Source: Geothrix paludis (GTDB lineage: Bacteria; Acidobacteriota; Holophagae; Holophagales; Holophagaceae). From it: a stretch of DNA of 64,000 nucleotides. The position numbers and the translations under genes were made by a program. Each line of letters begins with the position of its first letter. Position 1 is the stretch's first letter. Location of the stretch: positions 930,001-994,000 of the forward strand of contig NZ_JAKZLC010000001.1 in NCBI RefSeq assembly GCF_022808815.1. Reading direction: 5' to 3'. Of the stretch, positions 38,904 to 48,334 are shown piece after piece. The notes under the pieces are model-generated. The model was not told the origin of the DNA. It worked only from the letters and a program-made list of their open reading frames with translations, and did not search any database.

Positions 38904-40694
38904 TCAGGAATCCTCGTTGGGCTCGGGCAGCGGAGGCAGGGTGAGGCGCAGGTAGGCCGCCCGGGCCTCCGCATCGCCAGCTTCCATGCCCTTCCGGTAC
39001 CAGGAGAGTGCCTGGTCGATGTCCCTGGTACCGCCCAGCCCCTGCTCCAGGTAGCTCCCGAGTTTCCGCATGGCGGCCGCGTTCCCGCCCCCGGCAGCCT
39101 CCGCGAAGGCGTGCCGGGCCTTCTCGGAGTCCTTCGGAATCGTGCCCTCGCCCGACTCGTAGATCAGGCCTGCATTCCACCACCCGCTGGCGCTTCCCTT
39201 GGCTCCGGCCCGGAGATACCACCCGAGGGCCATGTCCGGGTTCCTGGGCACGATCAGGCCCTGCTCGTAGAACCAGCCGAGCTGGTTCATGGACGCTCCG
39301 TTCCCCTGGTCCGCGGCCGCCTGGTAGCACCTGATGGCCTCGGTGAGGTTCACGGGCACGCCCTCACCGTTCTGGTGGGCCCAGCCGACCTGATGCAGAG
39401 CGACCACATGGCCGAGGTCCGCGGCCTTGCGGAAATAGTCCAGCGACTTGCCGAGATCCCTGTCCGCCCACCCCTCGCGCTTGTAGCAGAAACCCAGCTG
39501 CGCCCAGGCCTGCACCCAGCCCCGCTCTCCAGCCTGCTGGTAGTGGCTGACGGCCGCCTGAAGGTCCTTGGCCGCGCCCCACCCGTTCTCCGAGAACCAT
39601 CCCAGGAGGTAGATCGACCGGGCAGATCCCTGCCTGGCTCCCTGCTTCAGCCAGACGAGGGCGCGCCGGTCGTCCTGACCGACCCCCTGGCCCTTGTGGT
39701 AGAGCCAGGCGAGCTGGGGAAACGCCCCGGGGTATTCATGTTCCGCGGCCTTCGCGTACCAGAAGGCGGCCTCTGAGTAGTCCGCCGCCACCCCGAGGCC
39801 GTATTCGTAGCACTCCCCCAGCCATCCCATGGCCTGAGGGGAACCCATCCGCGCAGCCTGCCTGCAGAGCGTGACGGCGCGCTCCGGATCCTTGGGGACG
39901 CCCTGGCCCCGGATGAGCATCCCGGCCAGCATCACCAGGGCCGAGGGATCCTCGAGCCCCTGGGCCTGCGTGAGCCAGGAGAGGGCTCCCGTCGGATCCT
40001 TGGGCACGCCGGTGCCGTCGAGGAGGAACCGTCCCATGAGTCGCGGCCCATCCGTGTAGCCCGCCTCGGCGGCTTGCTTGGCGAACCGGAAGGCCGCCGC
40101 GGTGTCCTTGGGGAACCCCAGCCCTCGCTCATGCATCCAGGCGAGCGTCATGGGGTAGAAGCGCGATTGGGGCTGGTCCGCGGCCCGGCTGAACCAGACT
40201 TTGGCGGCCGACGGATCCCAGGCGACACCCGCACCGCTGTCAAGACACTGCCCCAGCTCCGCCATGGCATCCGGAGATCCCTTCTCCGCTGCCTCCCGGA
40301 GCAGCTTGGCGTACTGGGCGTGATCCACCCGCACGCCGAAGCCGTTCTGATGGAGCTCCGCCAGGTGGTAGAGACCCCGGGCATTGCCTTTGGCCGCGCT
40401 GGCCTTCAGCCACCTCAGGGTCTCGGTGGAATCCCTGGGGACGCCTTCGCCCCGGAAGTGCATGCGCCCGAGATGGGCCATGGCCTCAGCATCGCCGGCC
40501 TCGGCCGCCGCCCGGTAGCAGGCCGCCGCCCTGGCCCAATCCCGCGGACAGCCCTCCGAGCCGAGCCACCGGCGGTGCCCCTCGGCCACGAGTCCACCTT
40601 CGAGGCCTGGCGCGCCCGGCGTCTGGGCGAGCACGGCCGCCGCCGGCACGAGCAGCCACGGGAGGACGGGGAGCCTGGAGATCGGGGGGCGCAT
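38904..40694 (-). CDS. Secreted Sel1-repeat protein
   Basis: The start at 40694 gives 596 residues with a Sec signal (MRPPISRLPVLPWLLVPAAAVLA). About 14 tandem Sel1-like repeats of 36 residues cover most of the protein, with units such as AMAHLGRMHFRGEGVPRDST and SMNQLGWFYEQGLIVPRNP. Sel1 repeats are alpha-alpha solenoids used for protein-protein contacts. In bacteria they are often periplasmic and linked to envelope signalling or interaction with hosts or other cells. The in-frame extension upstream has no signal and was not used. It is divergent from the carbamate kinase gene with 133 bp between them. Confidence 0.85.
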   Translation of the reverse strand: MRPPISRLPVLPWLLVPAAAVLAQTPGAPGLEGGLVAEGHRRWLGSEGCPRDWARAAACYRAAAEAGDAEAMAHLGRMHFRGEGVPRDSTETLRWLKASAAKGNARGLYHLAELHQNGFGVRVDHAQYAKLLREAAEKGSPDAMAELGQCLDSGAGVAWDPSAAKVWFSRAADQPQSRFYPMTLAWMHERGLGFPKDTAAAFRFAKQAAEAGYTDGPRLMGRFLLDGTGVPKDPTGALSWLTQAQGLEDPSALVMLAGMLIRGQGVPKDPERAVTLCRQAARMGSPQAMGWLGECYEYGLGVAADYSEAAFWYAKAAEHEYPGAFPQLAWLYHKGQGVGQDDRRALVWLKQGARQGSARSIYLLGWFSENGWGAAKDLQAAVSHYQQAGERGWVQAWAQLGFCYKREGWADRDLGKSLDYFRKAADLGHVVALHQVGWAHQNGEGVPVNLTEAIRCYQAAADQGNGASMNQLGWFYEQGLIVPRNPDMALGWYLRAGAKGSASGWWNAGLIYESGEGTIPKDSEKARHAFAEAAGGGNAAAMRKLGSYLEQGLGGTRDIDQALSWYRKGMEAGDAEARAAYLRLTLPPLPEPNEDS

Positions 40695-40827
40695 GGGAGA
40701 CCTTTGACAGGGTGCAAAAACCATGGGGATTCCCGCAAGGAAATTCCGCGAACTGCCCCGCACTGTGACGCCCGTCCTTTGGCCTGCCCCCCGGGCCCTG
40801 TAGAATCCTCGTTTCCCGGGGACCTGC

Positions 40828-41775
40828 ATGACCCGAAAAATCGCACTCCTGGCCATCGGTGGCAACGCGTTGCTCAAAGAGAAGGAGCGCGGGCTCCAGG
40901 AGGAGCAACTGGAGAACGCCCGGGAGACGGCGGAGATGCTGGCGCGAGTGGTGGCCGAGGGCTACGCCCTCTGCGTGGTGCACGGCAACGGGCCCCAGGT
41001 GGGTAACCTGCTCATCCAGCAGGAGGCCGGATCTGGCCAGATCCCGCCCTACAGCCTGGACATCTGCGGGGCCATGACCCAGGGCTCCATGGGCTACATG
41101 CTGGAGCGCATGCTCATCAACCGCCTGCGCTTCATGGGCCTGGATGCGCCGGTGACCTCCGTGCTCACCGAGGTGGTGGTGGACAAAGAGGACAAGGGCT
41201 TTCAGGACCCGACGAAACCTGTTGGTCCTTTCTACCCCGAGTTCCGCGCCCTGGAACTGATGCGGTCCAAGCGCTGGAAGATGAAGGAGGATTCGGGCCG
41301 CGGCTGGCGCAAGGTGGTGCCCTCGCCCAAGCCCATCGAGATCGTCCAGCTCGACGCCATCAAGACCCTGCTCCAGTCCGGCAGTTCCGTCATCGCCGGC
41401 GGCGGTGGCGGCATCCCGGTCATCCGCGACGCCAGCGGCTTCCTGGTGGGCATGGAGGCCGTCATCGACAAGGACCGCCTCAGCGCCCTGCTGGCCGCCC
41501 AGCTCGATGCGGACCTCTTCATCATCCTCACGGGCGTGGCCAAGGTGGCCCTCGACTTCGGCAAGCCCACCCAGCGCTGGGTGGACCGCCTCACCGCCAG
41601 CGAAGCCCGGAAGCACCTGGCCGAGGGCCAGTTCCCGCCCGGCAGCATGGGTCCCAAGATCGAGAGCGCCCTGGCCTACCTGGAAGGCGGCGGCCACGAG
41701 GTGCTCATCACCACCGCTGAGGCCCTGGCCACCGAGGACCCCGCCACCGTGGGCACTCGCATCGTGCGAGACTGA
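40828..41775 (+). CDS. arcC: Carbamate kinase
   Basis: The 315-residue amino-acid kinase family protein reversibly transfers phosphate between carbamoyl phosphate and ADP. Motifs match the family: IALLAIGGNALL at the N-terminus, VVHGNGPQVGNLL, QGSMGYMLE, FVIAGGGGGIPVI-like VIAGGGGGIPVIRD, the loop AVIDKDRLSALLA, and PPGSMGPKIESALAYL near the C-terminus. No arginine deiminase or ornithine transcarbamylase gene is adjacent, so it may act in another carbamoyl-phosphate context. A YciI-like gene follows 23 bp later. Confidence 0.95.
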   Translation: MTRKIALLAIGGNALLKEKERGLQEEQLENARETAEMLARVVAEGYALCVVHGNGPQVGNLLIQQEAGSGQIPPYSLDICGAMTQGSMGYMLERMLINRLRFMGLDAPVTSVLTEVVVDKEDKGFQDPTKPVGPFYPEFRALELMRSKRWKMKEDSGRGWRKVVPSPKPIEIVQLDAIKTLLQSGSSVIAGGGGGIPVIRDASGFLVGMEAVIDKDRLSALLAAQLDADLFIILTGVAKVALDFGKPTQRWVDRLTASEARKHLAEGQFPPGSMGPKIESALAYLEGGGHEVLITTAEALATEDPATVGTRIVRD

Positions 41776-42893: not shown

Positions 42894-43859
42894 CTACTTC
42901 AGCGCCGGCGCTGCCTTGGCGGCTTCCACCGCCTGCCGGGCCCGGGCCCGTTCCGCATCACTGGGGGTGCCCCAGACGGCCCGGCTGGGCTTCTGCTTCA
43001 ACAATTGCAGCAGTTCCTCCGCGGAATCCAGGGAACGCCTCAGCGCCTTGAGGCTGGCCTCCAGCTCCGGCTGGTCCTCGGCCCGGAACCGGGCCAGCAG
43101 CGCATCCGACTGCTGCAGCACCGACGCCAGACTCACGAGAATCCGATCCAAGTCCGGCGCGCGCGTTTCAAGGAGGGTACGGGTCACCGCCAGGCTCTTC
43201 TCCAGGTCGGCGAGGGCCTTGTCGGCCTCTCCCATGCTGCGGTCCGCATGGGCGGCCAGTCCGCGGCCATCCCTGGCCAGGGCCTGGAATTCGCGCAGGG
43301 TGGCGTCCAGCGATCGCAGCGCCCGGGCCACGGAAGGATGCTCCAGCAGGTCTCCCAGCCCCTTCGCCTGGATGCGATCGCGCACCGCGTCCAGAGAGGC
43401 GTTCAGGCTGGCCAGCAGACGGTCCGCCCGCTCCAGCACGCCGCTCAGGGAGACCCCCTGCTCGCCCGGGATCTGCTCGCCCGGCACCAGTGGCACCATG
43501 CGCATGTCTGACGGCGGCAGTCGCAGGTCCAGCATCACGCTGCCCACGCCCCTGGGGGCCACCACGGCCCGGGTGCCGCGCCACAGCTGGATATCCGAGC
43601 GCACGGCCAGGGTGGCCAGGAAGTGGTAGTCCGTGCCCTCTCGCCGCATGTCCACCCGTTCCACGGACCCCACGCGATAGCCCTTCAGCTGGACGTCGGT
43701 GCCGGGCGCCAGTCCCTCCATCTGGTCCAGCCGCACCACCAGCGGATAGGTCTTCTCGGTCACCACCGCGGCGTTCTTGTAGGCCAGGAGGCCCCCGAAG
43801 AAGCCCAGCGCCAGGAGGATGAAGAGGCCCAGGCGGGCGTCCTGCTTCTCGAAGTTCAT
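42894..43859 (-). CDS. MlaD-like MCE-domain lipid-transport protein
   Basis: The 321-residue protein has an N-terminal anchor (LGLFILLALGFFGGLLAY) and an MCE domain (about 35-115) with the family motif GLAPGTDVQLKGYRVGSVE. A long helical region follows (about 130-300) with a coiled-coil character. MCE proteins form ring- or tube-like periplasmic lipid conduits between inner and outer membrane. The last gene of a three-gene unit, it overlaps the ATPase gene by 4 bp, as in Mla-type operons. The conduit's lipid is not known. A substrate-binding protein (MlaC) is not evident in the window. Confidence 0.9.
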   Translation of the reverse strand: MNFEKQDARLGLFILLALGFFGGLLAYKNAAVVTEKTYPLVVRLDQMEGLAPGTDVQLKGYRVGSVERVDMRREGTDYHFLATLAVRSDIQLWRGTRAVVAPRGVGSVMLDLRLPPSDMRMVPLVPGEQIPGEQGVSLSGVLERADRLLASLNASLDAVRDRIQAKGLGDLLEHPSVARALRSLDATLREFQALARDGRGLAAHADRSMGEADKALADLEKSLAVTRTLLETRAPDLDRILVSLASVLQQSDALLARFRAEDQPELEASLKALRRSLDSAEELLQLLKQKPSRAVWGTPSDAERARARQAVEAAKAAPALK

Positions 43860-44521
43860 GACGGCTCCGAAGGCGGGTGGGGCGCGCGGAGGTCCAGCGT
43901 CTGGAACTCCGCCCCCAGGGGCAGATCCGCCTCCTCCATGGCCAGGAGGAGGGTGCGGCCGGAATCCAGGGCCCAGCCCGAGATGAGGTCGAGGACCAGG
44001 CCGCGGTCGGTGGCATCCAGTCCCTCCAGGGGCCCGTCCAGGAGGATCAGCTCCGGGTCCAGGGCCAGCACCCGGGCCAGGTTGGCGTGCTTCCGCGCCG
44101 CCGCGCTCACCGCATGGGGACGGAGGCCCGCCAAGGGCTCCAGCCCGAGTCGCGCCAGGGCCTCTCCCGTCCGGCGGTCGACCTCTCCTCTGGGAAGCCC
44201 CAGGAATCTCAGCGGGAGGACCACATTGTCCGCCAGGCTGAGGTTCGACAGCAGCCCGCCGGCAGGGAAGGCGAACCCCATGCGGACCCGTCCCGCCAGC
44301 CCCAGGGCGCCCTCCCCTGGCCAGACGGGGATGCCCGCGATCGTCACCTCGCCAGCCCTGGGGCGCTCTGTGCCGGCAAGCACCTTCAGCAGGTGGCCTC
44401 TTCCCGTTCCGCCGGCGCCCGCCACCAGGAGGTTCCGGCCCGGCGGGAGGTCCAGATCCAGGCCCTCCACCAGAGGCCGGCCATCGGGGAGATCGCAGGC
44501 GAGGCCGCGGACCTGGAGCAT
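43856..44521 (-). CDS. MlaF-like ABC ATPase with degenerate active site
   Basis: The 221-residue nucleotide-binding subunit sits in the Mla position and overlaps the permease gene by one base (TGATG). Its ABC fold is recognisable (LVAGAGGTGRGHLLKVLAG, RMGFAFPAGGLLSNLSL, LARVLALDPELILLDGP). The active-site residues are changed: Walker A Lys is Arg41, followed by Gly-His instead of Ser/Thr. The signature is VSAAARK (Ser139) rather than LSGGQ. Walker B is followed by Gly163 instead of the catalytic Glu, and the switch His region is AMEE. Hydrolysis is therefore unlikely. An in-frame upstream extension is only a shadow of the permease gene. Confidence 0.85.
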   Translation of the reverse strand: MLQVRGLACDLPDGRPLVEGLDLDLPPGRNLLVAGAGGTGRGHLLKVLAGTERPRAGEVTIAGIPVWPGEGALGLAGRVRMGFAFPAGGLLSNLSLADNVVLPLRFLGLPRGEVDRRTGEALARLGLEPLAGLRPHAVSAAARKHANLARVLALDPELILLDGPLEGLDATDRGLVLDLISGWALDSGRTLLLAMEEADLPLGAEFQTLDLRAPHPPSEPS

Positions 44522-45309
44522 CAGAAGTAGAAGCATGCGGCCAGGAGGCCGTCGATGACGAACACCGCCACCAGGGCGGAGACCACCGTCTTCGTGACGG
44601 CCTGGGGGACCTCGGTCTGGCTGCGCCGGACGCGGAGGCCGAAGTGGCAGGCGTGGAAGGTGATGGCGCCCGAGAAGAAGAAGACCTTCAGCAGGGTGGC
44701 CGTGAAATCCAGATTTGACAGCGCCTGTCGCACGGACTCCATGAAGAAGCCCCAGGTGATGCCGTATTTCAAGCGGGCCACCAGGAAGCCACCCCCAAGC
44801 GCCGCCGCATCGAAGCACACCACCAGGGCGAAGATCGCCACGAGCACGCCCGCCCAGCGAGGCAGGAGCAGGTAGCGGTAGGGGTCCACCCCGTGGGCCG
44901 CGAGCGCATCGACCTCTCCGTTGAGCTGCATGGTGCCCAGTTCCGCCGCGATGGCTGTGGCGCTGCGGCCGATGACCAGCACGGCGGTCAGCAATGGGCC
45001 CAACTCCCGCAGGATGATGACCACCATGAGCGTGCCGATGTAGTTCTCTGCGCCCAGGCCGGAGAGCTGGCTGAAGGCCTGGATGAGCGTCACCGCGCCC
45101 AGCAGCAGCGCCGTGCCCGCCACGAGCACCCCGGCGTCGAGGCCCGTGAAGCGGATCTGGAGCTTTGTCTGCCCGCCCACCACCGCCAGCTGGCCGGCCC
45201 GGAGCGCCAGCCCGGAACGCAGGGTCCGCCATACCAGGTGCGCCTGGTCGCCCAGGAACTCCAGGAAGCCGCGCACCGGCGCGCCAATCCGCGCTAGGAA
45301 AGCCATCAT
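44521..45309 (-). CDS. MlaE-family phospholipid transport permease
   Basis: The 262-residue inner-membrane protein has the MlaE core: VIILRELGPLLTAVLVIGR, SATAIAAELGTMQLNGEVDAL and HGVDPYRYLLLPR, which form the membrane interface with the ATPase coupling helix. About five or six hydrophobic helices are seen. It is the first gene of the unit MlaE-MlaF-MlaD and probably moves lipids to or from the outer membrane. The permease looks intact although its ATPase partner does not. Confidence 0.9.
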   Translation of the reverse strand: MMAFLARIGAPVRGFLEFLGDQAHLVWRTLRSGLALRAGQLAVVGGQTKLQIRFTGLDAGVLVAGTALLLGAVTLIQAFSQLSGLGAENYIGTLMVVIILRELGPLLTAVLVIGRSATAIAAELGTMQLNGEVDALAAHGVDPYRYLLLPRWAGVLVAIFALVVCFDAAALGGGFLVARLKYGITWGFFMESVRQALSNLDFTATLLKVFFFSGAITFHACHFGLRVRRSQTEVPQAVTKTVVSALVAVFVIDGLLAACFYF

Positions 45310-45347: not shown

Positions 45348-46157
45348 TCAGGGCTGAGCCGCACCACCCCTGCCGAGGCGCGGCCTCCCCGCCTCCAGGC
45401 TGAGGGTCGCCTGGTAGCCGAGGTAGAGGTGGATCTCCCGGTCGCCCGACAGGTTCCGGCCGGCGCTGATCAGGACGTGGTCCCGCTCCGACAGGTTGAG
45501 GATGGCCCCGACGTTGAAGCCGGTCGAGGCCACGCCATCTTGCGTGGCCGCCGAGCGTTGGAACAGCTCCCCGCCCAGGGTGATCCGCTCCGACAGATCC
45601 CGCTGGAGGAGCCACCCGAGGTAGTGCCAATTGCGCTGGCCCTCCCCCGGGTTCCGCCACCAGCCGTACCCGCCGTAGCTGGTCCATGGGCCCCAGCTCT
45701 TCTGGAGCCACAGCGGGAGGTACACCTGGGTGTGCCCCGCGCCGAGCCCCCGTTCCGCGGCCCCCGTGGGAACCTCCACCAGCGGGAAGACGCCCACCTG
45801 GGGAAGGACCCCGGTTTCGCGCAGAAGGCGGATCTTGAGCCCGACCTCCGTATCGCCGTAGCCCCGCGTCACGGGCCCTCCCGCGGGCTTGGCGTAGGCG
45901 AGGGGCGCCACGAGGTGGAACTGCGTTTCCGGCAGGATGCCGGCGTTGAACTCCGCCAGGGGTAGGCTGCCCGACGCGCCACCGGGTGCTCGAAGTCCCA
46001 TCCAGCTCAGGTAGAGCTCCATGTGGTGGTGCTCCACCGGCTCCGGGTCGTCCGTGAAGAAGGGTGGGCCCGCCTGCAGCCAGGTCCCCAGGAGCCCGGC
46101 CACCACCAGCGCCCGCCACCGACCGGCCCGCAGGAGAAGGGTCACATCACGTCCCAT
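45348..46157 (-). CDS. Outer-membrane beta-barrel protein (phenol MetA-type/transporter-like)
   Basis: The start at 46157 gives 269 residues with a signal peptide (VVAGLLGTWLQAG). Near the mature N-terminus it has PPFFTDDPEPVEHHHMELY, a motif seen in a family of predicted outer-membrane proteins often labelled MetA-pathway or transporter. The rest is alternating beta-strand segments ending in aromatic residues (GYGWWRNPGEGQRNWHYLGWLL), as expected of a small barrel. Function is unknown. It lies between the Mla-type unit and the CAP gene, and all three are on the minus strand, so a common transcript is possible. Confidence 0.7.
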   Translation of the reverse strand: MGRDVTLLLRAGRWRALVVAGLLGTWLQAGPPFFTDDPEPVEHHHMELYLSWMGLRAPGGASGSLPLAEFNAGILPETQFHLVAPLAYAKPAGGPVTRGYGDTEVGLKIRLLRETGVLPQVGVFPLVEVPTGAAERGLGAGHTQVYLPLWLQKSWGPWTSYGGYGWWRNPGEGQRNWHYLGWLLQRDLSERITLGGELFQRSAATQDGVASTGFNVGAILNLSERDHVLISAGRNLSGDREIHLYLGYQATLSLEAGRPRLGRGGAAQP

Positions 46158-46167
46158 GACGCGTCCC

Positions 46168-46797
46168 CTACCGGCTCTCCACGAACCCATCGGCGTAGTC
46201 GATCACGGTCACCGTTCGGTACTCCCGATGGGGCGCCGAGCCGGCGCCGGCCTGGTGGAGATCCGGGTTGAAGAGGTTCTTCCGGTGGCCGCGGCTGGCC
46301 ACTCCATCGTCGACCAGCAGCTGGATCACCACCTGCCGGGCCTCGTCCTCGCCGGCGCTGATGTTCTCTGCGATGAGCCCCTGCCAGCGTCCCAGCCGGT
46401 TCAGCCGGTCCGTGAGGCGGCTGCCATCCGAACCCGTGTGCTCGATGCTGCCCCTCGGCCCGATGTCCTGGGCATGCAGGCGGGCCGCCCGCGCCAGCCC
46501 CTCGCTGAAGCGCAGGGGGCCCACCGGCCGAGCGGACTCGAGAAACGCGATGGCCTCGTCCAGCGCGGTCACACCCTCCTCCGTACGCAGGGGCACGCGG
46601 CCCGGGCGGCTCCAGAGGGTGCCTTCGAAATACGGCCGCAGCTCCCGGAGGTATTTCGCGTAGGCCTTCGGCCGCACGCGCGCGTCGCTCATCTCCTGGA
46701 CCACCGCCCGCTCGAAGGCCGTGGCCTTCGCGGGTTCACCAGACACCCCATGGATGGGGCACAGCAGCGCGGCAAGGGACAGGACGGCGATCCTCAT
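46168..46797 (-). CDS. CAP-domain (SCP/PR1) secreted protein
   Basis: The second of two close ATGs (46797) is spaced correctly from GGGAG and gives 209 residues with a Sec signal (MRIAVLSLAALLCPIHGVSG). The CAP domain is seen as LRFSEGLARAARLHAQDIG, EHTGSDGSRL, GLIAENISAG and RKNLFNPDLHQAGAG, the usual bacterial CAP motifs. Bacterial CAP proteins have roles in sporulation, adhesion or signalling but little defined biochemistry. It is followed 10 bp later by the beta-barrel gene. Confidence 0.85.
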   Translation of the reverse strand: MRIAVLSLAALLCPIHGVSGEPAKATAFERAVVQEMSDARVRPKAYAKYLRELRPYFEGTLWSRPGRVPLRTEEGVTALDEAIAFLESARPVGPLRFSEGLARAARLHAQDIGPRGSIEHTGSDGSRLTDRLNRLGRWQGLIAENISAGEDEARQVVIQLLVDDGVASRGHRKNLFNPDLHQAGAGSAPHREYRTVTVIDYADGFVESR

Positions 46798-46833
46798 GGG
46801 CATCTCCCGACGGACCCTCAAGGATAGGCGCTC

Positions 46834-47331
46834 TCAGCGCGCCGGTTCATCGGCTCCGGTGGCAAGCAGCCGGGTCGAGGCGTTCCGCACCCAGGGCAGC
46901 CAGGGATGGATCCGGCAGGCCAGGCAGAACCCGAAGAAGGCTTCGAGACCCGCGCAGGTTCCCAGGATGAACGCCAAGGCGAGGCCGAGGGATCGGAGGC
47001 CGGCCACGAATGCCAGGCCGATGCCCAGGGAGAACAGGAAGCCCACGGAAGCCGCGAAGCGCTTGGGACCCGCGTTGATCCTCCGCTCGGAAAGGCCCGC
47101 CCGGCGGCGGAGGGCACCTGCCGCGCGGGCCACCGGGCTGAAGGCCGGGCGGCCCGCGGCGCGGAGAAGGAAATCCGCGGCCAGGGCCAGGACCGCCCAG
47201 CCCCAGCCCTGCCAGACGGACACCCCGAGGAAGCCGAGCGACAGGAAGGCGGCGATCCGCCCGGCCGATTCATCGGTCAGGTCCGGCGTGATGGGGCAGC
47301 TCGGCCCCGGGCGAAGCGCCTTCTGGTTCAT
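46834..47331 (-). CDS. DUF4395 membrane protein
   Basis: The 165-residue protein begins with a short CPIT segment (PSCPITPDL), then two pairs of hydrophobic helices and a C-terminal FCLACRIHPWLP motif. That matches DUF4395, a family of small membrane proteins of unknown function sometimes found beside thioredoxin-like or rhodanese genes. Here the upstream neighbour is cysK (10 bp away), which may reflect a sulfur link. The start ATG at 47331 was preferred because the region before it overlaps the cysK end. Confidence 0.7.
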   Translation of the reverse strand: MNQKALRPGPSCPITPDLTDESAGRIAAFLSLGFLGVSVWQGWGWAVLALAADFLLRAAGRPAFSPVARAAGALRRRAGLSERRINAGPKRFAASVGFLFSLGIGLAFVAGLRSLGLALAFILGTCAGLEAFFGFCLACRIHPWLPWVRNASTRLLATGADEPAR

Positions 47332-47341
47332 CCGGGGTCCC

Positions 47342-48298
47342 TCAGATCGCCGGCCCATCGATCTCCGCGAACAGCGGATGCGTCAGGTAGCGCTCGCCGG
47401 TGTCGCAGAGCACGGCCACGACCGTCTTCCCTTCCCCCAGCTCCTTGGCCACTTCCAGGGCGGCGAAGACGATGGCGCCGGTGCTGATGCCCGTGAGCAG
47501 GCCCTCTTCGCGGGCCAGGCGGCGGGCGATGGCGATGGCGTCGTCGTAGCCCACGGGGCGGACGCGCTGGAACGCCTTCTTGTTCAAGATGCCCGGCACG
47601 AAGTTCGGCCCCAGGCCCTGGAGCTTGTGCGGGCCAGCCTTCCCCTCGCTCAGCAGGGGCGACGTTTCGGGTTCCACCGCCACGACCAGGGTGCCGGGCT
47701 TCTTCTCGGCCAGCACCTCGCCCACGCCGGTGACCGTGCCGCCGGTGCCCACGCCGGCTACGAAGGCGTCCAGTTCCGGCACCTGCTCCAGCACCTCCAG
47801 GGCCGTGGTGCGGCGGTGGACGGCGGGATTGGCAGGGTTCTCGAACTGGCGCACCAGGAAGTAGGAGGGATCACCGTCGGCCAGCTCCTGGGCCTTGTCC
47901 ACGGCGGCCTTCATGCCGCCCGAACCGGGCGTCAGCAGCAGCTCGGCGCCGTAGGCCTTCAGCAGAGAGCGGCGCTCCTGCGTCATCGTGTCGGGCATCA
48001 CCAGCGTGATCTTGTAGCCCTTGGCCGCCGCCACGAAGGCGAGGCCGATGCCCGTGTTGCCGCTGGTGGCCTCCAGCAGCGTCATGCCGGGCTTCAGCGC
48101 GCCGCGCGCTTCCGCGTCCTGGATCATGCTCAGGGCGATGCGGTCCTTCACGCTGCCGCCGGGGTTGGCGCTCTCGAGCTTCACGTAGACCTTGGCCGAG
48201 CCCTTGGGCACGAGGCGGTTCAGGCGCACGACGGGCGTGTAGCCCACCAGCTCATAGGCGTGTTCGACGCGGTTGGGGCGTTCAGTGGGGCGGGCCAT
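47342..48298 (-). CDS. cysK: Cysteine synthase A (O-acetylserine sulfhydrylase)
   Basis: This PLP enzyme makes cysteine from O-acetylserine and sulfide. The start at 48298 follows a good ribosome site (GGAGGAAG) and gives 318 residues. Lys51 in GGSVKDRIA forms the Schiff base, and EATSGNTGIGLAF, GVGTGGTVTGVGE and DTGERYLTHPLF are typical CysK/CysM motifs. A candidate promoter lies at 48362-48335 on the minus strand (TTGACA, 16 bp, CATACT), overlapping a perfect palindrome. An Rrf2 regulator gene is divergent, which suggests repression of cysK by that protein. Confidence 0.95.
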   Translation of the reverse strand: MARPTERPNRVEHAYELVGYTPVVRLNRLVPKGSAKVYVKLESANPGGSVKDRIALSMIQDAEARGALKPGMTLLEATSGNTGIGLAFVAAAKGYKITLVMPDTMTQERRSLLKAYGAELLLTPGSGGMKAAVDKAQELADGDPSYFLVRQFENPANPAVHRRTTALEVLEQVPELDAFVAGVGTGGTVTGVGEVLAEKKPGTLVVAVEPETSPLLSEGKAGPHKLQGLGPNFVPGILNKKAFQRVRPVGYDDAIAIARRLAREEGLLTGISTGAIVFAALEVAKELGEGKTVVAVLCDTGERYLTHPLFAEIDGPAI

Positions 48299-48334
48299 GG
48301 CTTCCTCCAAGCTTCGGACGCTGCCGAGTCCTGG

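Follow-up and report, generated by a model that had tools for sequence, protein, structure and literature searches.

Can an Mla-type operon persist once its own ABC ATPase has lost the residues of its active site? The question is raised by a gene in a 64,000-nucleotide stretch of Geothrix paludis DNA (the whole stretch analysed, hereafter the window), which the first-pass annotation had read as the catalytically dead ATPase of an Mla-type operon. The direction in which Mla systems move lipid (in or out) and the purpose of ATP are debated. A lineage that sheds the catalytic residues while keeping the complex is an evolutionary separation-of-function experiment, and it offers a way to test what part of the function of MlaFED requires ATP. 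The products of this operon and of its relatives are named here MlaE-d, MlaF-d and MlaD-d.

The operon and the active site of MlaF-d

The reading frame of mlaF-d, 221 codons long and stop-free, overlaps mlaE-d by 1 base and mlaD-d by 4 bases (Table 1), as the first-pass annotation had indicated, so that its translation is probably coupled to that of its neighbours. Pfam model PF00005 (ABC_tran) matched MlaF-d with 53.9 bits (E 3.8e-14), the AlphaFold2 model had a pLDDT of 91 and a pTM of 0.88, and Foldseek aligned the protein with E. coli MlaF (6xbd_I) at a TM-score of 0.79. The ABC NBD fold, made of a RecA-like and a helical subdomain, is predicted to be retained, in agreement with the earlier reading; such a prediction is silent on activity. 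The top NCBIfam matches were other ABC models, far under their cut-offs. Both partners look intact: MlaE-d matched PF02405 with 203.6 bits (cut-off 22.5) as well as PDB chains 7ch8_G and 6xbd_G, and MlaD-d matched PF02470 with 44.1 bits (cut-off 25.1). The latter consists of an N-terminal helix, the MCE domain and then a long helical tail, in a low-confidence model.

Table 1. Genes of the degenerate system and sites in MlaF-d, with their positions in the window.
Feature	Position	Strand	Description	Basis
mlaF-d	43856..44521	-	degenerate ABC ATPase subunit, 221 aa	translation, Pfam, AlphaFold2, Foldseek, motif alignment
mlaE-d	44521..45309	-	MlaE-family permease, 262 aa, conserved coupling-helix region	
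mlaD-d	42894..43859	-	MCE-domain protein, 321 aa, long helical tail	
Walker A remnant	44396..44419	-	GAGGTGRG, residues 35-42; Lys to Arg41, Ser/Thr to Gly42	
Arg41 codon	44399-44401	-		
Q-loop position	44264..44266	-	Pro86 replaces Gln	motif alignment
Degenerate signature	44090..44110	-	VSAAARK, residues 138-144 (LSGGM to VSAAA)	
Walker B remnant	44030..44050	-	residues 158-164; Asp162 retained, Glu to Gly163	
Switch-His position	43934..43936	-	Glu196 replaces His	
Post-Q-loop segment	44204..44260	-	GGLLSNLSLADNVVLPLRF, residues 88-106, most conserved stretch of MlaF-d	

The intact MlaF encoded in the same genome (L047) served as the reference for calling motifs. Arg41, the VSAAARK signature and Gly163 were read in the 221-aa translation exactly as first described. 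The accompanying claim that several active-site motifs are lost proved understated, as Gly42, Pro86, Glu196 and the missing A-loop aromatic have to be added. All five elements by which a functional ATPase was to be recognized (Walker A, Q-loop, signature, Walker B Glu and switch His) are altered in the alignment and, judged by motif, MlaF-d is a dead ATPase. The label "ABC transporter ATP-binding protein" is misleading for mlaF-d genes.

Searching the genome for a second MlaF, as first proposed, did reveal an intact copy, in an MlaFED operon at C1:551520-553289 (GGSGTGKT, LSGGM, DEPT, THD). Canonical MlaE and intact MlaF were also present in the other checked genomes carrying the dead system. 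The mlaE-d operon itself carries a single NBD gene, and a homodimer of MlaF-d would thus have two dead sites. This differs from the degenerate-site ABC transporters TAP, CFTR and TM287/288. Their degenerate sites have likewise lost the Walker B Glu, His and signature consensus, but a second NBD of a different kind lets them retain one consensus site (PMC7756269).

Distribution, origin and order of the losses

The nearest orthologues of MlaF-d, from Geothrix terrae SG184 and Geothrix sp. SG200 (90% and 87% identity), share Arg41 and Gly42 in open frames, and sequencing error or recent decay could be rejected on these grounds. A single-sequence scan of named genomes returned true orthologues in these two only. 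Orthologues were found in 42 of 47 Geothrix genomes (53-90% identity, one truncated at a contig end); five Geothrix genomes, several of them incomplete, gave no MlaE-d match. MlaE-d with an adjoining MlaF-d also occurs in six more genera of Holophagaceae, where MlaD-d comes next except at one incomplete locus, and the order MlaE-d, MlaF-d, MlaD-d with its tight spacing persists across genera. Outside Holophagaceae, all 11 MlaE loci examined from the same class had an intact MlaF. Elsewhere in the phylum, strong MlaE-d matches came from genomes G251 and G158, in a sample of 297 genomes with at most 8 candidates scored per genome, which is not a census; a further one, G357, was found within the family of G251. 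MlaF is degenerate in all three. The G251 copy retains the Q-loop Gln and has GRGSGGT, LSPGE and an Arg in place of the Walker B Glu, and the G357 copy resembles it. Read by eye, the G158 copy retains Walker A, the Q-loop Gln and an Asp-Asp Walker B, with LSDEN as signature and Ser in place of the His. This copy (L173:4062-4793) is the least degenerate MlaF-d and a useful intermediate for biochemistry.

MlaE proteins with a degenerate MlaF partner form one clade with a single origin. In the MlaE tree, all 23 sampled members lie on one side of a single branch with support 100/100, and the comparison set consisted of 35 MlaE whose partner was labelled intact, a label that was motif-checked for part of the loci. 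The stem of the clade is long and drew a long-branch-join warning from the program, and its placement within MlaE is not settled. G251 and G357 (L172, L192), which belong to a different family of Acidobacteriota, nest inside the Holophagaceae part of the tree, and this suggests horizontal transfer.

The Q-loop Gln, the LSGGQ/M signature and the switch His are missing in 55 of 55 aligned MlaF-d of Holophagaceae and present in 16 of 16 canonical MlaF, so that chance is ruled out for their absence. The idea that the loss is conserved in orthologues is borne out clade-wide for these three elements and fails for the Walker A Lys. The window clade comprises three species, and none of its three copies has that residue, whereas 37 of 38 copies from the remaining Geothrix have it, as do 2 of 14 from other genera. 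At the catalytic-Glu position, the 38 copies have Asp (31), Glu (6) or Ala (1) and the window clade has Gly or Ala; the Walker B Asp is retained in all 38. Read from the alignments, the losses in MlaF-d are stepwise. Since two or three of G251, G158 and G357 keep the Q-loop Gln, the losses of signature and switch His are the oldest shared step, and the phosphate-binding Lys was lost later and more than once. With the Lys present in nearly all other Geothrix copies, the Arg41/Gly163 pair is a late, local step over an old inactivation, and Walker A loss was rejected as the defining ancestral event. The MlaF-d of genome G034 (L025) also has Arg for the Walker A Lys (GSGRS, Ser retained), a change probably independent of that in the window clade.

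Most Geothrix copies and the G158 copy, which keep the Walker A Lys and the Walker B Asp, may still bind nucleotide. Such retention, and the intact Walker A and Q-loop of the G158 copy, speak for MlaF-d as a nucleotide sensor that would bind ATP without hydrolysing it, binding being what gates the permease. We regard this as quite unlikely, however, as the operon persists in the window clade without either the Lys or the Ser/Thr and in other genera, most of which lack Walker A, and as no copy has kept the signature, which would be needed to clamp ATP across the dimer.

Selection and a conserved segment after the Q-loop

In the three species of the window clade, which lack Walker A, omega was 0.29-0.30 for MlaF-d (bootstrap 0.17-0.51, P neutral <=2e-5), 0.07-0.10 for MlaE-d and 0.15-0.16 for MlaD-d, and it was 0.10-0.14 for canonical MlaF and 0.03-0.04 for canonical MlaE, all from Nei-Gojobori counts with small numbers of changes. 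Thus, MlaF-d is under purifying selection and is less constrained than its neighbours. As it evolves faster than MlaE-d, MlaD-d and intact MlaF (0.30 against 0.07-0.16), part of the protein is relaxed, and this counts against the explanation that we prefer below. Every copy of mlaF-d that was found has an open frame free of internal stops; with the low omega, this confirms the first-pass view that the gene is not a simple pseudogene. In Geothrix and related Acidobacteriota, this second Mla-type operon has thus retained mlaF-d as an open gene under selection over a very long time.

A decaying operon, with a functionless MlaF-d heading for loss, would agree with MlaF-d having the highest omega and the lowest identity of the operon, and with the five Geothrix genomes that lack a match. 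It is nevertheless very improbable, given that omega stays significantly below 1 even after the loss of Walker A, that the frames are open, and that gene order and spacing are preserved across genera and also in other families of Acidobacteriota.

Between Geothrix and the other genera, mean identity is 0.32 over MlaF-d and 0.72 over residues 88-106, the segment following the Q-loop. Among 203 windows of equal length, this segment ranks 1st in MlaF-d and 57th in intact MlaF, whose best-ranked windows contain Walker A and the signature; as it was first chosen from the alignment, the rank is a description, not an independent test. In ABC proteins, the coupling helix of the permease sits in the cleft beside the Q-loop. 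The TM2-TM3 region of MlaE-d, where the coupling helix is expected, is well conserved in the clade, and it is through this helix that MlaE contacts MlaF (PMC7790496). The post-Q-loop segment is thus a putative docking site for the coupling helix of MlaE-d, and the pattern of constraint fits an MlaF-d kept for docking and not for catalysis.

The role of MlaF-d and comparison with known systems

We think it rather probable that MlaF-d is a pseudo-ATPase kept as structural subunit of an MCE lipid conduit that is not powered by its own NBDs, and the sequence pattern favours such a structural, unpowered role. The picture that we infer covers assembly, absent ATP binding and hydrolysis, and passive lipid flow with its direction. 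The complex of MlaE-d, MlaF-d and MlaD-d would probably still assemble, with MlaF-d docking on the MlaE-d coupling helices via its conserved segment after the Q-loop and serving as a scaffold that braces the permease dimer. It would probably function without ATP hydrolysis by MlaF-d, letting lipid pass downhill between the inner membrane and the helical tail of MlaD-d in the periplasm. In E. coli, MlaD hands lipid to MlaC spontaneously in the absence of ATP, and this transfer is prevented by ATP hydrolysis (PMC10212509), so a complex whose MlaF is dead would presumably act as an unpowered downhill conduit. Also, an ATPase domain is absent from the PqiA and LetA MCE systems (PMC12436622).

Besides the faster evolution of MlaF-d and the possible nucleotide binding by copies with Walker A, two observations count against this explanation. 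Walker A and Walker B mutants of E. coli MlaF fail to complement (PMC7367683), so that MlaFED is not known to work unpowered. Also, MlaF-d ends at residue 221 and has nothing that corresponds to the C-terminal part of the intact 263-aa paralogue. The handshake extension that is thus missing stabilises the MlaF dimer in E. coli and is needed there for assembly (PMC7367683). To the broader reading we give about even chances: an ABC lineage with both NBDs dead, in which a former pump is now an ATP-independent lipid conduit and the NBD dimer only a scaffold or gate, beside a canonical ATP-driven Mla in the same cell.

The main rival holds that the intact MlaF of the second operon powers MlaE-d, as a homodimer or in a mixed dimer, MlaF-d being a regulator or placeholder. 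The coexistence of intact MlaF with the dead system in this and the other checked genomes is in its favour, as are the MlaE-d coupling-helix region, still like that of MlaE, and the pairing of degenerate with consensus sites as a known ABC design (PMC7756269). However, the operon keeps an NBD of its own, canonical MlaF already belongs to a complete operon, and the docking segment is clade-specific, highly conserved and unlike that of intact MlaF. Were the two proteins to form a mixed dimer, the degenerate signature would fall in one site, and the altered Walker B, Q-loop and His in the other. With a separately conserved docking segment and neither composite site complete, this rival is weakened and we judge it unlikely.

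The MlaFEDB complex of E. coli and the minimal MlaEFD of Veillonella parvula (PMC10665443) combine the same three families (MlaE PF02405, ABC NBD, MlaD PF02470) in one operon. Compared with both, MlaF-d is without the Q-loop Gln, signature, switch His and C-terminal extension and, in the window, also without the Walker A Lys and Walker B Glu. The Veillonella system has no MlaC, and likewise none was found in this genome, so an MlaC shuttle was rejected. The tail of MlaD-d is helical, and the protein lacks the strand-rich C-terminal part seen in the canonical MlaD of this genome. By eye, the canonical Geothrix MlaD (L047 887-2350, minus strand) has an apparent long helical part followed by a strand-rich C-terminal region. 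In this it is like the long trans-envelope MlaD of Veillonella (PMC10665443), whereas the strand-rich region is missing in MlaD-d.

PqiABC and LetAB are MCE lipid conduits without an ABC ATPase of their own, and the MlaD-d tail weakly matches PqiB. Those systems use PqiA or LetA membrane proteins, whereas the permease here is a true MlaE; a PqiA/LetA-type partner was rejected, as the genome gave no PF04403 match. No PqiC-like lipoprotein was recognised beside the operon within the window. The Mpc system of Brucella abortus (PMC12436622) has MlaE and MlaF homologues and an MCE protein of 331 aa (321 aa in MlaD-d) that ends in coiled-coil helices, similar to MlaD-d. Its ABC transporter, MpcF included, is described as well conserved (PMC12436622), whereas MlaF-d is degenerate.

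What is new here is a clade-wide Mla/MCE operon that carries a pseudo-ATPase, a variation on Mla/MCE systems. No earlier report of a dead MlaF was found in the open-access literature searched, which is weak evidence of absence. MlaF-d would be a rare bacterial pseudo-ATPase retained in an ABC system whose NBDs come from one gene.

Several other genes lie near the operon. Directly upstream of mlaE-d, at 45348-46190 (minus strand), a gene for 280 aa without Pfam match reads like an outer-membrane beta-barrel. A match to it stands beside the operon in G046, G009, G002 and G020 and not in G001 and G017; with no match there in several Geothrix, it was rejected as a fixed component of the system. 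Further upstream, 46168-48310 (minus strand) encodes a CAP-domain secreted protein, a DUF4395 protein and a PALP enzyme resembling cysteine synthase. Of these, the CAP and PALP genes adjoin the operon in the g5 genomes (L090, L091) as well as in most of the Geothrix loci that were read. At 38904-40877 (minus strand), an ORF of at most 657 aa matches the Sel1 repeat nine times; it is adjoined by an amino-acid-kinase-family gene at 40828-41775 (plus strand).
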